From NCBI RefSeq assembly GCF_014174395.1, contig NZ_JABEQD010000004.1, positions 1 through 64,000 on the forward strand: DNA of 64,000 nt, in the 5' to 3' direction. The translations under genes and the position numbers were made by a program. The notes below the pieces were generated by a model. It made no database searches. It worked only from the letters and a program-made list of their open reading frames with translations, and had not been told where the DNA came from. Position 1 is the first letter of the stretch. Every line of letters starts with the position of its first letter. Shown piece by piece: positions 4,175 through 13,094 of the stretch. This stretch comes from Gluconacetobacter aggeris. Lineage in GTDB: Bacteria; Pseudomonadota; Alphaproteobacteria; Acetobacterales; Acetobacteraceae.

Positions 4175-4917
4175 CCTGGCAGGCCACGATCCTGACCCTC
4201 TTCCCCGGCATGTTTCCCGGTCCGCTTGGCCAGTCTCTGGCCGGGCGGGCGCTGGAGGACGGGCTGTGGTCGCTCGATCTGCGCGACCTGCGGGACTATG
4301 GCCTGGGGCGGCATCGGACGGTGGACGATACGCCCTTCGGCGGCGGGGCGGGCATGGTCATGCGTCCGGATGTGGTGTCAGCCGCGATCCGCGACGTGGC
4401 GGCCGCCGGGCGCCCGGTGATCTATCCGACGCCCCGTGGGCGGTTGCTGCGCCAGGACGATGTCCGTCGCCTGACCGGCGGCCCCGGCGTGGTGGTGCTG
4501 TGCGGGCGCTACGAAGGGGTGGATGAGCGGGTGCTGGAGGCATGCGCCGTCGAGCAGGTCTCGATCGGCGATTATGTCCTCTCCGGCGGGGAGATGGCGG
4601 CCCTGGTGCTGCTGGATTCCTGCGTCCGGCTGATCCCCGGCGTCATGGGCTCGGACGCCAGCGGCACGGAGGAAAGCTTCTCCGACGGGCTGCTGGAATA
4701 TCCGCATTACACCAAGCCGGCGAGCTGGGAGGGGCGCGACGTGCCCGACATCCTGCTGTCCGGTCATCACGCCGCCATCGCAAGCTGGCGGCAGACTGAA
4801 TCCGAGACGGCGACCCGCGTCCGCCGGCCCGACCTCTGGGCCGCGTATCGGCGCCGCACCGGCCAAGACACGTCCGATCCGGTCAGCCATGCGGCTGATC
4901 CCGACCGGCTGCACTGA
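4171..4917 (+). CDS. trmD: tRNA (guanine-N1-)-methyltransferase TrmD
   Basis: 248 residues, the normal TrmD length. Trefoil-knot SPOUT enzyme that methylates G37 of tRNAs reading CNN/GGN codons with S-adenosylmethionine. Visible motifs: [14 protein letters not shown] at the N-terminus, [16 protein letters not shown] in the first third, [11 protein letters not shown] at about 111-121, and the knot motif [15 protein letters not shown] near residues 132-146. Overlaps rimM by four bases and is followed after 30 bases by rplS. Confidence 0.97.
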
Positions 4918-4947
4918 CTAGACTGTTTTGAAACGAGGAACCCGATC

Positions 4948-5328
4948 ATGAACATTATCCAGCAGTACGAGGCCGGTGAGATTGCCCGCCTCTCCGCCGA
5001 GCGTGCGGTCCCCGAATTCGGCCCCGGCGACACGGTCCGCGTGTCGGTCCGCGTCGTCGAAGGCGAGCGCAAGCGCGTCCAGGCCTATGAAGGCGTGGTG
5101 ATCGCCCGTTCGAACAAGGGGCTGAACAGCAACTTCACCGTGCGCAAGATCTCGAACGGCGAAGGCGTGGAGCGCGTGTTCCCGCTCTATGCCCCCACGA
5201 TCGCCGAGATCAAGGTCGTGCGCCGTGGTGCCGTGCGTCGTGCGAAGCTGTATTATCTGCGCGGCCGCCGCGGCAAGTCGGCGCGTATCGCCGAGCGCGC
5301 CCGCGAGACGGTGACGGCCACGGCCTGA
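4948..5328 (+). CDS. rplS: 50S ribosomal protein L19
   Basis: 126 residues. Segments such as [28 protein letters not shown] and [13 protein letters not shown] are diagnostic of bL19, which sits at the 30S-50S interface. GAGGAA ribosome site in front of the ATG. Last gene of the ffh-to-rplS group; a 150-base gap with weak hairpins separates it from leuC, so transcription may or may not read through. Confidence 0.97.
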
Positions 5329-5478
5329 TCACCATCCGATACCGCGATGCGTCGCCTCCGGCCACGGCCGATGGGTGGCGCATCGTCCTGATCCTACGGG
5401 TTCGTTCCTTCGCCGTCCGCGTGGCTTCGCGGATGGCGGGGCCGTTCCACGCCATGCCGTTCCGAAGGGGAAAGACCG

Positions 5479-6882
5479 ATGGCCGCACGCACGCTGTTCG
5501 ACAAGATCTGGGACAGTCATGTCGTGGAGCGGCTCGAGGACGGCACGGCCATTCTCTATATCGACCGGCACCTCGTGCATGAGGTGACGAGCCCGCAGGC
5601 GTTCGAGGGGCTGCGTATCAGCGGTCGCCGCCTGCGCCGGCCGGACGCCACCATCGCGGTGGTGGACCATAACGTGCCGACCTCCGACCGCACCCTGCCG
5701 ATCGAGGAGCCGGAAAGCCGCAACCAGATCGAGACGCTGGAGCGCAATGTCCGCGAATTCGGCGTGCCGTATTTCCCGCTTCTGTCGGAACGGCAGGGCA
5801 TCGTGCATGTGGTGGGGCCGGAGCAGGGGATTTCGCTGCCCGGCATGACCATCGTCTGCGGCGACAGCCATACCTCGACCCACGGCGCGATGGGCGCGCT
5901 GGCGTTCGGCATCGGCACGTCCGAGGTCGAGCATGTGATGGCGACCCAGACCCTGCTGCAGAAGCCCGCCCGCAACATGAAGGTGGTGGTCGAGGGCACG
6001 CTGGGCGCGGGGGTGACCGCCAAGGATGTGATGCTGGCCATCATCGGCACCATCGGCACCGCCGGCGGCACCGGCTATGTGATCGAATTCGCGGGTTCGA
6101 CGATTCGCGGGCTGGACATGGCCGGACGGATGACGATCTGCAACATGTCGATCGAGGCGGGAGCGCGCGCCGGGCTGGTGGCGCCGGACGAGACGACGTT
6201 CGACTACGTGCGCGGCCGGCCCTTCGCGCCGCAGGGCGAGGCGTTCGAGCAGGCGGTGGCCTACTGGAAGACGCTGGTGGCCGATGACGGTGCCCATTAC
6301 GACAAGGTCGTGGAACTGCGGGCCGAGGATATTCCGCCGGTCCTGACCTGGGGCACCAGCCCCGAGACGGTGATCCCGGTCTCCGGCACCGTGCCCGACC
6401 CGGCGGCGGAAAGCGACGGGGCGAAGCGCGCGCAGTTGCAGCGCATGCTCGACTATATGGGGCTGGAAGCCGGGCAGAAGATCGCCGGCGTGCCGGTCGA
6501 TGTCGTCTTCATCGGCTCCTGCACCAACAGCCGGATCGAGGATCTGCGCTCGGCGGCGTCGATCGTGGCGGGGCGGCATGTGGCGCCGGGCGTGCGGGCC
6601 ATGGTGGTGCCCGGATCGGGCATCGTGAAGGCGCAGGCCGAACGCGAGGGGCTGGACCGGGTCTTTCTCGATGCCGGTTTCGAATGGCGCGAGGCGGGAT
6701 GTTCGATGTGCCTGGGCATGAACCCCGACCGGCTGACGCCGGGGCAGCGCTGCGCTTCGACCTCCAACCGCAATTTCGAGGGGCGCCAGGGGCCGGGCGG
6801 GCGTACCCACCTGCTTTCGCCCGCGATGGCGGCGGCGGCGGCGGTGACGGGACATCTGACGGACGTGCGGGAGCTGATCTGA
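5479..6882 (+). CDS. leuC: 3-isopropylmalate dehydratase large subunit
   Basis: 467 residues, full length for LeuC. Aconitase-family enzyme that, with LeuD, isomerises 2-isopropylmalate to 3-isopropylmalate in leucine biosynthesis. The 4Fe-4S ligands are visible: a cysteine in [10 protein letters not shown] near residue 346 and two in [10 protein letters not shown] near residues 407 and 410. The substrate-binding stretch [20 protein letters not shown] lies near residues 130-149. AAGGGG-type ribosome site precedes the ATG. leuD follows after 3 bases, so the two subunits are cotranslated. Confidence 0.97.
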
Positions 6883-8749: not shown

Positions 8750-10858
8750 ATGCGCTCGTTTCGAATCATCATCGCTGGATTTGCGATGCTGGCCACCATG
8801 CCGGCTGTCGCCTCTTCTTCTTCCGCGCCGCCCCCCGATGCCTTGTCCGAAGTGCGCGGCAAGGCCGCCTTGTCGTGGGTGGATGAGCAGAACCGGCGGA
8901 CCTTCGCGGGGCTGGAAGCCGATCCACGCTATCGCGTCTTTCATGATTCCGTGCTGCGGATCCGGCAGGATGCGCACCGCATACCGATGCCGACCTTCCT
9001 GGGCGGGGAAATCTTCAATTTTTGGCAGGACGCGGCCCATCCGCGCGGGATCTGGCGCGAAACGGCGCCGGAGCGCTTCGTGGCCGGGCATCCGCTGTGG
9101 ACCACCCGGCTGGATGTCGACGAACTGGCCCGGCGCGAGCATCGCAACTGGGTGTTTCAGGGCGCGGACTGTCTGGCGCCCGACGATTCGCCCTGTCTGA
9201 TCCAGCTTTCGGAAGGGGGCGAGGACGCGACGACCCTGCGTGAATTCGCCCCTCTGTCTGGCGGGTTCACGCCCGATGGTTTCCTGTTGCCCCACTCCAA
9301 GCAGACCGTGGCATGGGAAGATCGGGACACGCTGCTGGTGGCGCGCGACTGGGGTGATGGCCCGCGTGGCGTCTCTGGCGGGGCGATGACCCGTGCGGGG
9401 TATCCGTTCGTGGTGCGCCGCCTGCACCGGGGGCAGGCGCTGGATAGCGCGGTGGAGGTGATGCGCGGCCAGCGCGATGACGTGCTGGTGGCGCCGGTTG
9501 CGCTGGCCGACGGGGAGGGGCACCGGCTGGTGCTGATCCGTCGCGCCGTGACGTTCTTCGAGGATCGCTATAGCCTCGTGACCGACGGGGGCACGCGGGC
9601 GCTCGACCTGCCCGCGCGCATGGACCTGCATGGCCTGCTGGCCGGGCGGCTGATTCTGTCGGCCAATCAGGATTGGCAGTCGGGCGGCGTGAAGATTCCG
9701 GCCGGCAGCGTCATCGCCGTCGATCCGGATGGGCGCATGCCGGTCCAGCTCCTGTTTACGCCCGGCGCGCGTCAGGCGGTCGATGAAGTCGCGGTGACGG
9801 GGACGGGCGTGGTGATGACGGTGCTCGACTCGGTGCGCGGCCAGGGGTGGGTCTACCGGCCCGATGCAGCCGGTGGCTGGCATGGTACGCGGCTGAAGCT
9901 GCCCGACATGATGTCGGTCCATATCATGGATGCCGACCGTCGTTCGGGGCGGGCGTTTCTCTCGGTCTCGGGCTTCCTGACGCCGCAGCAGCTCTGGCTG
10001 GCCGACAGCACCGACGGCAGCGCGCGGAAGATCATGGAACTGCCTCCCCAGTTCGATTCGGCCGGGCTGGTGGTCGGGCAGGAATGGGCGGTTTCGAGCG
10101 ATGGGACGCGGATTCCCTATTTCATCGTGCATCGGGCGGATATGCGGTCCGATGGCAGCAATCCGACCCTGTTGACCGCTTATGGCGGATTCCAGCTCTC
10201 GTCATTGCCCGATTACGACCCGGTGGCGGGCAGGCTGTGGCTGGATCGGGGTGGTGTCTATGTCGTGGCCAATATCCGGGGCGGCGGCGAGTTCGGGCCG
10301 GCCTGGCACGAGGCGGGACGGATGGCCGGCCGCCAGCATGTCTTCGACGATTTCGCCGCCGTGGCGCGCGACCTGATCGCGCGAAAGATCACCGTGCCCG
10401 CCCATCTGGGGATTCGCGGGCGTTCGAATGGCGGGCTGTTGATGGGGGTGGAATTCACCCAGCATCCCGATCTGTGGGGGGCGGTGATCGTGGGGGTGCC
10501 ATTGCTGGACATGGAGCATTTCGAGACCATGGCTGCCGGGGCCTCGTGGGCCGGGGAGTATGGCAGCATGGCGGTACCGGAGCAGCGGACGTTCCTGGAA
10601 CGGATTTCGCCCCTGCGGGCGCTGCGTCCCGGGGTGCACTATCCCGAGCCGTTCATCTTTACCTCGACCCTCGATGACCGGGTGGGCCCGGTGCACGCGC
10701 GGCTGTTCGCGGCGCGGCTCCAGGCGCTCGGGGTACCCTTTCTGTATTACGAGGATACCGAAGGCGGCCATTCCGGGACGGTGAATGCGAGCGAGGTCGC
10801 GCGCGAGCGCGCGCTGGAGGCAGTGTATCTGAGCCGCCTGATGGATCGGGGCCACTGA
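8750..10858 (+). CDS. Exported prolyl oligopeptidase family serine peptidase (S9A)
   Basis: 702 residues from the ATG at 8750; ATG 8738 would add four residues and is equally possible. N-terminal signal peptide (RIIIAGFAMLATMPAVASS), then a seven-bladed beta-propeller (about 60-460) and a C-terminal alpha/beta-hydrolase domain. Catalytic triad visible: Ser about 559 in GRSNGG, Asp 642/643 in LDDRV, His about 674 in GGHSG. The family cleaves short peptides at or near proline. Its nearest homologues by architecture are periplasmic POP-like enzymes of alphaproteobacteria. It stands alone after the leu terminator. Start assignment is uncertain because neither ATG has a strong ribosome site. Confidence 0.88.
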   Translation: MRSFRIIIAGFAMLATMPAVASSSSAPPPDALSEVRGKAALSWVDEQNRRTFAGLEADPRYRVFHDSVLRIRQDAHRIPMPTFLGGEIFNFWQDAAHPRGIWRETAPERFVAGHPLWTTRLDVDELARREHRNWVFQGADCLAPDDSPCLIQLSEGGEDATTLREFAPLSGGFTPDGFLLPHSKQTVAWEDRDTLLVARDWGDGPRGVSGGAMTRAGYPFVVRRLHRGQALDSAVEVMRGQRDDVLVAPVALADGEGHRLVLIRRAVTFFEDRYSLVTDGGTRALDLPARMDLHGLLAGRLILSANQDWQSGGVKIPAGSVIAVDPDGRMPVQLLFTPGARQAVDEVAVTGTGVVMTVLDSVRGQGWVYRPDAAGGWHGTRLKLPDMMSVHIMDADRRSGRAFLSVSGFLTPQQLWLADSTDGSARKIMELPPQFDSAGLVVGQEWAVSSDGTRIPYFIVHRADMRSDGSNPTLLTAYGGFQLSSLPDYDPVAGRLWLDRGGVYVVANIRGGGEFGPAWHEAGRMAGRQHVFDDFAAVARDLIARKITVPAHLGIRGRSNGGLLMGVEFTQHPDLWGAVIVGVPLLDMEHFETMAAGASWAGEYGSMAVPEQRTFLERISPLRALRPGVHYPEPFIFTSTLDDRVGPVHARLFAARLQALGVPFLYYEDTEGGHSGTVNASEVARERALEAVYLSRLMDRGH

Positions 10859-10932
10859 GGCGAGTGTTTCTGGTCGCAGAAATAATCGCACATCAGGTGG
10901 CGTGGGAAAGTTCTGCGTGATACGCTGAGAGT

Positions 10933-11093
10933 GGCGTGTAGCAACGCTCTTTTGCATTGGGGCGGCCTCTCTGTCGGGCGGCCTGCCAAATATAACACCC
11001 GGACTTTGTCCAGCGGTGAACAGGGAGACCTGTTACCGTAGCGGGAATAGGCGGGACGTGCCTATGCCTCATGCAAACACGTTGCTAACCGCC
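10933..11093 (+). repeat. Structured repeat element, copy 1 (161 bp)
   Basis: Bounded by inverted ends GGCGTGTAGCAACG (10933-10946) and CGTTGCTAACCGCC (11080-11093). Contains the hairpin GGCCTCTC-TGTC-GGGCGGCC, the conserved core AATATAACACCCGGAC with the GGAC-TTT-GTCC hairpin, and GCGGTGAAC. Homology with copies 2 and 3 continues about 45 bases to the left and for CGACGCCAGGAGCGG to the right. In this copy no gene follows; the sequence passes directly into the region that lies behind the gene in copy 2. The strand given is that of the neighbouring genes; direction of transcription, if any, is unknown. Confidence 0.85.
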
Positions 11094-11163
11094 CGACGCC
11101 AGGAGCGGCCGGGACGCCGATTCCACGGGACGATCCGGGGAAGCGTCCAGACCTGAAAGCCGG

Positions 11164-11266
11164 CATGAAGAAAGTCGGCCTGTCGAGGGAATCCGGCTTT
11201 CCTGCGGGGATCGACGCGTGAGAGCGGATCGCAGAATCCTTGGCGCTCCAGATGCTTGCGCGCAAG
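11164..11266 (-). pseudogene. Degraded copy of rpsU terminator and 3' end (copy 1)
   Basis: Aligns base by base with the region downstream of and at the end of the real rpsU (12826-12920): CATGAAGAAAGTCGG, the terminator-like stem, CCTGCGGGGATCGACGC, GCGGATC and CGCTCCAG-TGCTTGCGC are shared, with substitutions and a two-base insertion at the stop codon. Only about ten final codons of S21 are represented, so nothing functional can be made. The copy ends abruptly where the flank of element copy 2 begins (CAAGGGCTGGTCACCC). Confidence 0.75.
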
Positions 11267-11320
11267 GGCTGGTCACCCTTCGGGGTGGCGTCGGAAAATC
11301 CTGTGTGATATCGTGAACAT

Positions 11321-11482
11321 GGCGTGTAGCAACGCTTTTTCCAAAGGGGTGGCCTCCTTGTCGGGTGGCCTGCCGAATATAACACCCGGACTATGTCCAG
11401 CGGTGAACGGGTTATGCTGTTTATCGTCACGGAAATAGGCAGGGCGTGCTTTTGCCCTTTTTGGAACACGTTGCTACCCGCC
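11321..11482 (+). repeat. Structured repeat element, copy 2 (162 bp)
   Basis: Inverted ends GGCGTGTAGCAACG (11321-11334) and CGTTGCTACCCGCC (11469-11482). Inside the ends a second paired stretch (left TTTTTCCAAA, right TTTTTGGAAC) continues the stem. Also present are GGCCTCCT-TGTC-GGGTGGCC, the conserved core AATATAACACCCGGAC, the GGAC-TAT-GTCC hairpin, and AGGGC-GTGCTTTT-GCCCT. A CACCC-TTC-GGGGTG hairpin lies about 35 bases upstream. The small gene at 11591 follows about 110 bases downstream, so the element could be its 5' leader. Confidence 0.85.
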
Positions 11483-11590
11483 CGACGCCAGGAGCGGCAC
11501 GCGGAGGCGTGCCCTTACCGTTGCGATGGCGTTCGGAATGAATGCGAACGGGATGGGTACGTGGTGCAGGATGAACCAGGCGAGTCGCCT

Positions 11591-11941
11591 ATGATGGCCC
11601 CTGCCATGGCTTCGGCCATGGTGCGGACCCATGGCAAGGACGCCATTGCCGTCGTCCGGCGTCATATCGCGCGCAGCCTGGAAGATAATCTGGTCGACGA
11701 TGTCGAATTCTGGCTGCGGGTCCGCGATCAGATCGAATGTCTGCAATGGAGCGCGACGTGGGCGGGGCAGGACCGGAGGCGGCCTGCCGCCGGGGACGGG
11801 CGGCCGGGCGAGGAGGTCGTGCTGGAGGCGTGGCTGAAGGAGACGCTGTGCCGGATGGCGGGATCGGCGGTGGATGAGCCGATTCCGGAGGCGCTTCTAC
11901 GGCTGGTCGGACTGCCGATTCCCGAAGGCGATCCGGAGTGA
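11591..11941 (+). CDS. Small helical protein of unknown function, paralogue A
   Basis: 116 residues from ATG 11591; an in-frame GTG pair at 11561/11564 would add nine or ten residues (VVQDEPGES) that are also conserved in paralogue B, so the true start may be upstream. No signal peptide or membrane segment. Conserved N-terminal half: ASAMVR, then VRRHIAR, LEDNL-DD-EFWLRVR and LQW; conserved C-terminal half: EE-VL-AWLK, RMAGS and DEPIPE-LLRL. The middle is variable. Many differences from paralogue B are at third codon positions within the conserved blocks, which argues for a translated gene under selection. I do not recognise the family and assign no function. Confidence 0.65.
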   Translation: MMAPAMASAMVRTHGKDAIAVVRRHIARSLEDNLVDDVEFWLRVRDQIECLQWSATWAGQDRRRPAAGDGRPGEEVVLEAWLKETLCRMAGSAVDEPIPEALLRLVGLPIPEGDPE

Positions 11942-11980
11942 CGGGGCCGTCCGGGACGCCGTCCCGGGATCGGGCCACGG

Positions 11981-12118
11981 CATGAAGAAAGCCGGTCTTC
12001 CGAGGCAAGTCGGCTTTCTTGCCGGGTTCGGCGCCTGAGAGCGCGGGGAGCTTTGCGTCGTGATGACGCCGCTTCATCTCGCGAAAGTTGCTTTCGGAGC
12101 AGGTGCTTGCACGCCAGG
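11981..12118 (-). pseudogene. Degraded and rearranged copy of rpsU terminator and coding fragments (copy 2)
   Basis: Begins like copy 1 (CATGAAGAAAGCCGG, GGCTTTC, GGCGCCTGA). Then comes a stretch matching the middle of rpsU: GACGCCGCTTCATCTCGCG at 12065-12083 corresponds to the real gene near 12993-13012. After that a second match to the extreme 3' end (CAGGTGCTTGCACGCC) appears out of order. It therefore carries an internal deletion and a rearrangement and cannot encode S21. It ends at the same junction as copy 1 (GGGG-TGATCACCC) where the flank of element copy 3 starts. Confidence 0.7.
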
Positions 12119-12171
12119 GGTGATCACCCTTCAGGGTGGCGCCGGAAAAACCCGCGTGATATCGTGAGAAT

Positions 12172-12335
12172 GGCGTGTAGCAACGCTTTTTCCAAAAGGG
12201 GTGGCCATCCCTGTCGGATGGCCTGCCGAATATAACACCCGGACCATGTCCAGCGGTGAACGGGTCGTGCTGTTTATCGTCATGGAGATAGGCAGGGCGT
12301 GCTTTTCGCCCTTCTGGAACACGTTTCTACCCGCC
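12172..12335 (+). repeat. Structured repeat element, copy 3 (164 bp)
   Basis: Left end GGCGTGTAGCAACG (12172-12185); right end CGTTTCTACCCGCC (12322-12335, one base decayed). It has the best central hairpin of the three: GGCCATCC, loop CTGTC, GGATGGCC (8 of 8 pairs). The inner stem is TTCCAAAAGGG against CCCTTCTGGAA. The core AATATAACACCCGGAC with GGAC-CAT-GTCC and the AGGGCG-TGCTTTT-CGCCCT hairpin are kept. The small gene at 12445 follows about 110 bases downstream, the same spacing as in copy 2. Confidence 0.85.
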
Positions 12336-12444
12336 CGACGCCAGGAGCGGTCGGGGAGGTGTGCCCTTGCCGTTACGCTGTCGTTGCGGAACGCATGCGG
12401 ATCGGGATGGCCACGTGGTGCAGGACGAACCAGGCGAATCGGTT

Positions 12445-12792
12445 ATGACGGCTCAGGCGATGGCGTCGGCCATGGTGCGGGTCTATGGCGAAAACGCCCT
12501 CGGCGCAGTCCGGCGCCATATCGCGCGCTGTCTTGAGGACAATCTGATCGACGATCTCGAGTTCTGGCTACGGGTGCGCAACCAGGTCGAGCATCTGCAA
12601 TGGAAGGAGATCCGGGGGGAGCGGAGCGGCAAGCGGCCGGCCGGGACCAGGCGATCGGGAGAAGAGATCGTGCTGGCGGCATGGTTGAAGGACGCACTCT
12701 CCAGGATGGCGGGATCGGTAGCGGACGAGCCCATCCCGGAGGAGCTTCTGCGGCTGCTCGATGCGCCGATGCCGCCGGACGATCCGAGCTGA
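12445..12792 (+). CDS. Small helical protein of unknown function, paralogue B
   Basis: 115 residues from ATG 12445; conserved in-frame GTG codons at 12415/12418 are possible earlier starts. Clearly homologous over its whole length to the protein at 11591-11941 (blocks ASAMVR, VRRHIAR, LEDNL-DD-EFWLRVR, LQW, RMAGS, DEPIPE-LLRL). The linker between the two halves differs and is basic here (RGERSGKRP). The gene converges on rpsU, whose terminator starts 36 bases after its stop codon. No recognised domain; cytoplasmic by sequence. Function unknown. Confidence 0.65.
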   Translation: MTAQAMASAMVRVYGENALGAVRRHIARCLEDNLIDDLEFWLRVRNQVEHLQWKEIRGERSGKRPAGTRRSGEEIVLAAWLKDALSRMAGSVADEPIPEELLRLLDAPMPPDDPS

Positions 12793-12828
12793 CGGGGGCG
12801 AGGAGGAGCCGCATCTGAATCAGGCATG

Positions 12829-12863
12829 AAAAAAGCCGGCTTCCCGAGGGGAAACCGGCTTTC
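12829..12863 (-). terminator. Rho-independent terminator of rpsU
   Basis: Read on the minus strand: AAAGCCGG-T-TTCCC, loop CTC, GGGAA-G-CCGGCTTTTTT. A 12-14 bp stem followed by six T residues, 28 bases after the rpsU stop. On the plus strand it may also stop transcription coming from paralogue B. This is the intact parent of the degraded copies at 11164 and 11981. Confidence 0.85.
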
Positions 12864-12890
12864 CTGCGGGGATCGACGCCTGATGGCGGA

Positions 12891-13094
12891 TCAGAACCCT
12901 TCGCGCTCCAGGCGCTTGCGCTCCATCTTGCGGGCGCGGCGCACGGCCTCGGCAGCCTCGCGCGCCTTGCGCTCGGAGGGCTTTTCGTAGTGGCGACGCA
13001 GCTTCATCTCGCGGAAGATGCCTTCACGCTGCATCTTCTTCTTGAGTGCCTTGAGAGCCTGGTCGACATTATTGTCGCGAACGAGAACCTGCAC
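12891..13094 (-). CDS. rpsU: 30S ribosomal protein S21
   Basis: 67 residues: [20 protein letters not shown] followed by the strongly basic helical segment [19 protein letters not shown], typical of bS21. S21 helps initiation by placing the anti-Shine-Dalgarno region. The gene is divergent from def and shares the 268-base region 13095-13362 with it. Its terminator and 3' end have been copied twice into the array to its left. Confidence 0.96.

Follow-up and report, generated by a model that had tools for sequence, protein, structure and literature searches.

The window, that is, the whole stretch of 64,000 nt from Gluconacetobacter aggeris that was analysed, contains three copies of an element of about 175 nt, all on the + strand: copy 1 at 10932-11105 (from the left arm to just beyond an RCCA tail), copy 2 at 11320-11494 and copy 3 at 12171-12347. 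An ORF of about 115 aa lies behind copies 2 and 3, and none lies behind copy 1. The ORF after copy 2 (11591-11941, + strand, 116 aa, start codon chosen by eye) resembles the one after copy 3 and has no Pfam match, and the ORF after copy 3 (12445-12792, + strand, 115 aa) has a weak match to NepR close to its C-terminal part of the reading frame, at its end (PF18557, E 0.0035, 17.4 bits against a cut-off of 25.7). An intact rpsU gene is found at 12891-13094 on the - strand, and its identity was confirmed by Pfam Ribosomal_S21. The repeated units hold ends of this neighbouring gene and resemble tandem duplicates; sequences resembling the rpsU 3' end at 11232-11261 and 12041-12095, within these tandem units, suggest how the units were duplicated.

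Generally, the element is not confined to the window. The G. aggeris genome has 8 copies, 3 in the window and 5 beyond it. A DNA-level search found the element in 11 of 60 genomes including its own (10 of the 59 other related genomes), all in one genus, and in 10 plasmid records (9 from Komagataeibacter and 1 from Gluconacetobacter), while copy 3 had no DNA-level match in 50,697 phage records.

The arms of the element are an a1b1/b'a' antisense pair, whose pairing crosses a conserved stem called P1. The left and right arms read CTTTTGCATTGGGG and CTCATGCAAACACG in copy 1, TTTTTCCAAAGGGG and CCCTTTTTGGAACACG in copy 2, and TTTTTCCAAAAGGGG and CCCTTCTGGAACACG in copy 3. In copy 1, a1 (10938-10946) pairs with a' (11078-11088) and sits in a short hairpin (10933-10948) that is also terminator-like, and b1 (10948-10962) pairs with b' (11066-11077), so the antisense strand as a whole spans 11066-11088. 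Arm pairing likewise places the left arm of copy 2 at 11326-11349 (a1 11326-11334, b1 11336-11349) and its antisense strand at 11455-11477 (b' 11455-11466, a' 11467-11477). The left arm of copy 3 is at 12177-12201 (a1 12177-12185, b1 12187-12201) and its antisense strand, located through the copy alignment, at 12308-12330 (b' 12308-12319, a' 12320-12330); in this copy neither a:a' nor P1 is free of mismatches.

The initial annotation had claimed that both arms changed jointly with pairing kept, and this was confirmed with more homologues, by permutation and by column count alike. We collected 30 distinct copies in 14 clusters and permuted the left against the right arms of one representative per cluster; it turned out that 0 of 100,000 permutations reached the cognate duplex energy, the representatives being treated as independent though they are related. 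For the outer helix, both sides change in 6 of 9 pairs, and 92.3% of cells are paired. By duplex energy, 21 of the 30 copies have no better partner among the 30 right arms than their own (ties allowed); the own arm ranks 2nd for copy 1 and 6th for copy 3. The a1/a' pair has turned over repeatedly among the 30 copies, for instance GTAGCAACG/CGTTGCTAC, GTGATAACG/CGTTATCAC, TTAGCAACG/CGTTGCTAA, TTGGCAGCG/CGCTGCCAA and more. The exceptions are L011 and L014, where the left arm misfits the right arm, and L021, where it is missing. The left part of L011 and L014 looks as if replaced.

The P1 stem is formed by GTCGGGNGG with CCGCCCGAC, and 99.6% of its cells are paired but nearly invariant. One P1 pair is U-G in 28 of 30 copies, and G-U wobbles are retained in the stems. 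The 5' strand of P1 is at 10973-10981 in copy 1 (paired with 11089-11097), at 11360-11368 in copy 2 (by column count) and at 12213-12221 in copy 3 (by copy alignment, with one A-C mismatch), and the 3' strand together with GCCA is at 11089-11101, 11478-11490 (by copy alignment and column count) and 12331-12343 (by copy alignment), respectively. GCCA follows P1 in all 30 window-class copies, and the tail GACGCCAGG is invariant in 30 of 30. The core, said before to be nearly unchanged, is indeed so: AATATAACACCC is identical in the three window copies (10989-11000, where it corresponds to AAUACAAuACCC of RF02221, and, by comparison of the three copies, 11376-11387 and 12229-12240), and many core columns are unchanged in 30 of 30 copies. 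Besides, a GGAC-NNN-GTCC hairpin does vary in its loop alone in the three window copies, as noted earlier, and both sides of its stem change in L018, L024 and L032. The central GGCC hairpin of the initial annotation did not hold up as a family-wide feature and was rejected, since the 3' half of this hairpin (GTCGGGNGG) serves P1 as 5' strand, and the relatives L018, L032 and L044 do not retain the 5' half. Because P1 and the outer helix cross, they are either mutually exclusive or form a pseudoknot; in single-sequence folding the full-length window copies fold into a rod (a1b1:b'a'), and their cores alone fold into P1.

Upstream of the element, a -10-like motif may mark a promoter. In copy 1 it is TGATACGCT at 10918-10926, 14 nt 5' of the element, and under the same TGnTA reading, made post hoc, it is TGATATCGT in both copy 2 (11306-11314) and copy 3 (12157-12165), all on the + strand. 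TGnTA occurs 14-15 nt 5' of the element in 24 of 30 copies, a spacing read post hoc; at the preset interval of 16-18 nt, the only one covered by the shuffle control, it occurs in 0 of 30. A strict sigma-70 scan of 10850-12900 gave no promoter.

We compared the element with the Rfam family sRNA-Xcc1 (RF02221), and the covariance model matched end to end (positions 1-87) in all three window copies. The scores are 29.9 bits for copy 1 (10973-11105), 19.4 bits for copy 2 and 19.3 bits for copy 3, below the gathering cut-off of 53 bits and thus short of the threshold for membership. The sRNA-Xcc1 core AAUACAA-ACCCG / GGGAAUA between P1 and P2 is present in the window copies (L006-L008 were also aligned). 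At E<=10 the 8 element copies are the only matches of the model in the genome (E 2.4e-4 to 2.07; 150 of 290 first-look candidates scored), the best copy reaching 35.8 bits, again below the cut-off. Among 14 control genomes, 2 have matches at E<=10, none above the cut-off. In Acetobacteraceae, 12 of 150 genomes including its own have matches at E<=0.01, 2 of them above the cut-off, and longer forms resembling the window class are found in other genera of this family. Across the phylum, matches at E<=1e-6 occur in 44 of 398 genomes, 39 of them above the cut-off. The core pattern was found in 104 stretches of viral contigs and in at least 118 stretches of named genomes, and the genera among the matches listed include Xanthomonas, Lysobacter, Rhodanobacter, Pectobacterium, Komagataeibacter and Acetobacter.

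The window class and sRNA-Xcc1 have in common P1, P2, the core AAUACAA-ACCCG ... GGGAAAUA, the antisense-strand hairpin, the tail after P1 and several copies per genome; for example, five neighbouring sRNA-Xcc1 copies are described in Xylella (PMC12189769). In contrast to sRNA-Xcc1, the window class has a middle that is 35-50 nt longer, scores under the Rfam cut-off and precedes NepR-like, GST or cupin genes. It also lacks the T-run hairpin that most relatives carry between a1b1 and the core, and has instead the a1 hairpin itself followed by T's, which is terminator-like in copy 1. The founder of the family is an 88-nt sRNA with a single Northern band, confirmed by RACE (PMC2996969). Whether the element is a folded RNA or a DNA hairpin had been left open by the initial annotation, and the core shared with this family, the covariation of the arms and the kept G-U wobbles support the former. 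The repeated element is thus very probably a real folded RNA and a divergent relative of sRNA-Xcc1.

For the wider family, we drew 30 RF02221 loci, at most one per genome, from the phylum-wide matches, and a pattern set of 59 non-redundant loci from 177 oriented places in 184 loci (viral L086-L189 and genome L195-L274, the latter being part of the at least 118 genome stretches). In the 30 RF02221 loci, b'a' lies 5' of the 3' side of P1 and tends to complement an upstream pair of sites, where a1 occupies the loop of a hairpin and b1 follows; often a second pair, a2b2, stands just 5' of the start codon, and there b2 overlaps the Shine-Dalgarno sequence or lies close to it. We compared cognate with swapped strands. 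For these loci b'a' fits its own upstream 170 nt with z -11.1 (0 of 100,000; rank 1 in 13 of 30) and its own downstream 70 nt with z -8.4 (0 of 100,000; rank 1 in 10 of 30). For the 59 pattern loci the values are z -18.1 upstream (0 of 100,000; top 5% in 26 of 59, top half in 56 of 59) and z -8.7 downstream (0 of 100,000; top 5% in 17 of 59, top half in 46 of 59). The cognate ranks in both sets indicate that the upstream site is widespread and that the downstream site exists in part of the family. NCCA follows P1 in 32 of the 59 loci, and 45 of 59 have five T in a row in the 85 nt preceding the core. In the loci that were read, this T-run is mostly preceded by a hairpin that lies between a1b1 and the core. 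This T-run hairpin is a possible attenuator, which could possibly be controlled by the mature RNA binding a1b1.

For the genes behind the element, we ran Pfam on 20 downstream proteins (19 from a set of 40, and the L006 gene), which were picked by eye, so that the counts are not a rate. The cut-offs were passed by Bro-N (4), KilA-N (1), P22_AR_N (1), Rha (4), ANT (1), SymE (2) and SHOCT (1), that is, 11 of the 20 proteins have a domain of the phage antirepressor type above the cut-off. The L071 protein has a Bro-N match below the cut-off, and 5 of the 20 have no Pfam match at E<=0.01; in L060 and L071 the tested ORF begins more than 100 nt past the element, behind a shorter ORF. A full circuit is found in the sister copy L006 of the same genome, where TTGGCA stands in the upstream hairpin and again in a downstream hairpin, which is followed by b2 and then by the ATG of a 51-aa ORF; this small gene lies near 116,630 of its contig. 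The downstream rank of the own strand of L006 is 1 of 44, and L018, L024 and L044 also have rank 1. An IMG/VR contig (L121), which also has host-like genes, carries the same circuit and gene as L006. The 51-aa ORF behind these two complete circuits reads LFKAKIVLxNGSxQEV..., and the L006 protein has no Pfam match. Beside the L121 element, an ORF at 4761-5573 on the opposite strand is IS transposase-like by eye.

The antirepressor gene ant is the target of the C4 RNA of phage P1. Like C4 of phages P1 and P7 (RF01695; c4-a1b1; c4-2, RF02944), the sRNA-Xcc1 family has an upstream a1b1, an antisense a'/b' and b over the ribosome-binding site; the c4-a1b1 motif is listed in a table of PMC2864571. 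Antirepressor genes, the targets of C4, are candidate targets in the sRNA-Xcc1 family too, and processing at P1 by RNase P, as in C4, is predicted for this family. In C4 RNA, which RNase P cuts at P1, the b' loop covers part of the ribosome-binding site, and specificity comes from the a' loop (PMC5320573). RNase P RNA pairs with 3' RCCA (PMC12710915), and P1 of the sRNA-Xcc1 family often ends in RCCA, as RNase P substrates do. In contrast to phage C4, the family has a different core, and no C4 or c4-2 model matches at the element: the Rfam C4 models had no match up to E 10 in 10850-12900, and in sets of 6, 12 and 15 loci neither RF01695 nor RF02944 matched the element at E<=1. Membership in Rfam C4 was therefore rejected. 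A single c4-2 match in L065 lies away from the element. By its layout the sRNA-Xcc1 family would work like C4, by analogy and not by a match to the C4 models. The C4-derived Group 1 sRNAs of Acinetobacter baumannii likewise have many copies per genome and varied a' specificity (PMC5320573), and the authors of that paper consider them co-opted; they match Rfam C4, whereas our element matches sRNA-Xcc1. SymE/SymR offers another comparison, as symE genes also stand behind some sRNA-Xcc1 members (Pfam; PMC12444791), with the difference, pointed out in that paper, that SymR of E. coli is encoded in cis to symE and sRNA-Xcc1 is located upstream of it.

The reading that we prefer, and think fairly likely with its full mechanism, is that the product of the element is an antisense RNA of the C4 type belonging to the sRNA-Xcc1 family. 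Transcription would start at the left arm, as the conserved -10-like motif hints, and the transcript would carry in order a1, b1, the core, b'a' and the 3' side of P1 together with RCCA. RNase P would cut at the 5' base of P1 (just 5' of 10973 in copy 1), as suggested by the RCCA, the C4 precedent and the start of the Rfam model at P1 (87 positions long, against 88 nt by RACE). The cut would free an RNA of about 130 nt with the b'a' strand, which could block translation by pairing with a target that consists of a2, in the loop of a hairpin, and b2, which covers the Shine-Dalgarno sequence or lies close to it; in the complete circuits a2b2 stands just 5' of the next gene. As the a1b1:b'a' rod competes with P1, the rod probably represents a form that is uncut or self-blocked, or else a1b1 serves the mature RNA as a feedback site. 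The pairings, the family resemblance, the gene neighbours and the RCCA were computed; the promoter, the cut by RNase P, the action in trans, the block of translation and any feedback on a1b1 are inferred.

For the window copies themselves, we searched the cognate a2b2 and found none within 220 nt downstream (ranks 22 of 43, 21 of 43 and 21 of 44), nor was a clear one seen in the 1.2-1.3 kb downstream of 10 loci. A wider downstream scan ranked copy 2 as 1 of 30 (682 nt away) and L028 as 2 of 30 (114 nt), neither with the a2b2 layout; in the 220-nt comparison the own strand of L028 came first of 44, at a place inside its ORF. Two specificities were searched in the own genome with strict a-gap-b patterns; apart from one stray place, each pattern matched only the arms of one element, and the backward control patterns gave 4 and 1 matches. 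The window copies keep the a1b1:b'a' pairing. Their subgroup precedes a small protein and a NepR-like tail, either fused or as a second ORF, and among relatives one NepR match passes the Pfam cut-off (31.5 against 25.7 bits) and another is just under it (25.6). Both ORFs are present in L047 and L053 from other genera, and the first ORF alone in L048 and L049. Small proteins with a NepR-like tail (window 11591-11941 and 12445-12792; L028, L029, L047, L053) thus form a family that goes with the element across several acetic acid bacterial genera, some of them fused and some as two ORFs. The element also precedes glutathione S-transferase genes in three genomes (L015, L017, L030) and a cupin gene in L021, and Pfam confirms one of the former and the cupin. 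For 8 representatives of the NepR-associated subgroup, only 1 of 40,320 orders, the true one, reaches the cognate arm sum, so the arm pairing appears to be under selection even in this subgroup without a2b2. With no a2b2 found, the window copies would have some target in trans, or only a choice between rod and P1 in cis, for the genes behind copies 2 and 3.

The latter is the best surviving alternative, in which the element is a cis-acting leader only, with rod and P1 as two transcript states that set the gene behind and with no small RNA acting in trans. It would account for the unit of element and small gene that recurs in other genera (L047, L048, L049, L053), for arms that covary within the small-gene group though no a2b2 was found there, and for the folding of full-length copies as rods and of their cores as P1. 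We take it as possible but rather unlikely, because the family founder is an 88-nt RNA with a single Northern band (PMC2996969), the downstream a2b2 signal holds across the family overall, and copy 1 has no small gene to control. More doubtful still, indeed improbable, is a decaying relic, a former phage-type antisense unit that was duplicated in tandem and is functionless in the window now: copy 1 without a gene, the mismatches of copy 3 in a:a' and P1 and the rpsU ends in the units are what such decay could leave, but both arms turn over jointly across divergent copies, and the GACGCCAGG tail and many core columns are unchanged in 30 of 30. An attC-like, MITE or repeat element that moves or folds as single-stranded DNA would suit the dispersed copies, also on plasmids, the sRNA-Xcc1 in Xanthomonas integron cassettes (PMC12444791) and the transposase-like ORF adjoining the L121 element, but it is very improbable and was rejected for the kept G-U pairs and the RNA family match, all the more as the family has a mapped transcript (PMC2996969), inspection of the ORF list by eye showed nothing transposase-like around the window copies, and no feature specific to a DNA hairpin was found at the element.

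Returning to the antisense RNA of the C4 type, what would be new is a C4-like antisense design on the sRNA-Xcc1 core, with a long form in acetic acid bacteria. A link between sRNA-Xcc1 and C4 was not found in the open-licence literature searched, where, in the text available, one annotation table has both in separate rows. A much wider reading is speculative, and we regard it as unlikely when its parts are taken jointly: the whole sRNA-Xcc1 family would be a second lineage of C4-type antisense regulators processed by RNase P, and hosts would keep diversified sets of a'/b' (8 here) that have been domesticated, silencing genes of incoming phages that carry a matching a2b2 or controlling NepR-like stress regulators.

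In conclusion, the antisense-switch signature suggests a job for sRNA-Xcc1, a small-RNA family previously without one, which has been tied to regulators of plant pathogens and to vesicles, with targets that are predictions in the available text of these papers (PMC2996969, PMC12189769). If the family is C4-like, the first target would be the adjacent gene, such as an antirepressor or SymE, the RNA would be produced by RNase P, and the prediction of targets should begin from a'/b'. If true, this would provide a rule that can be tested in a large family, which occurs on viral contigs and plasmids, and might connect an antisense RNA of the phage type with stress genes of the NepR type.
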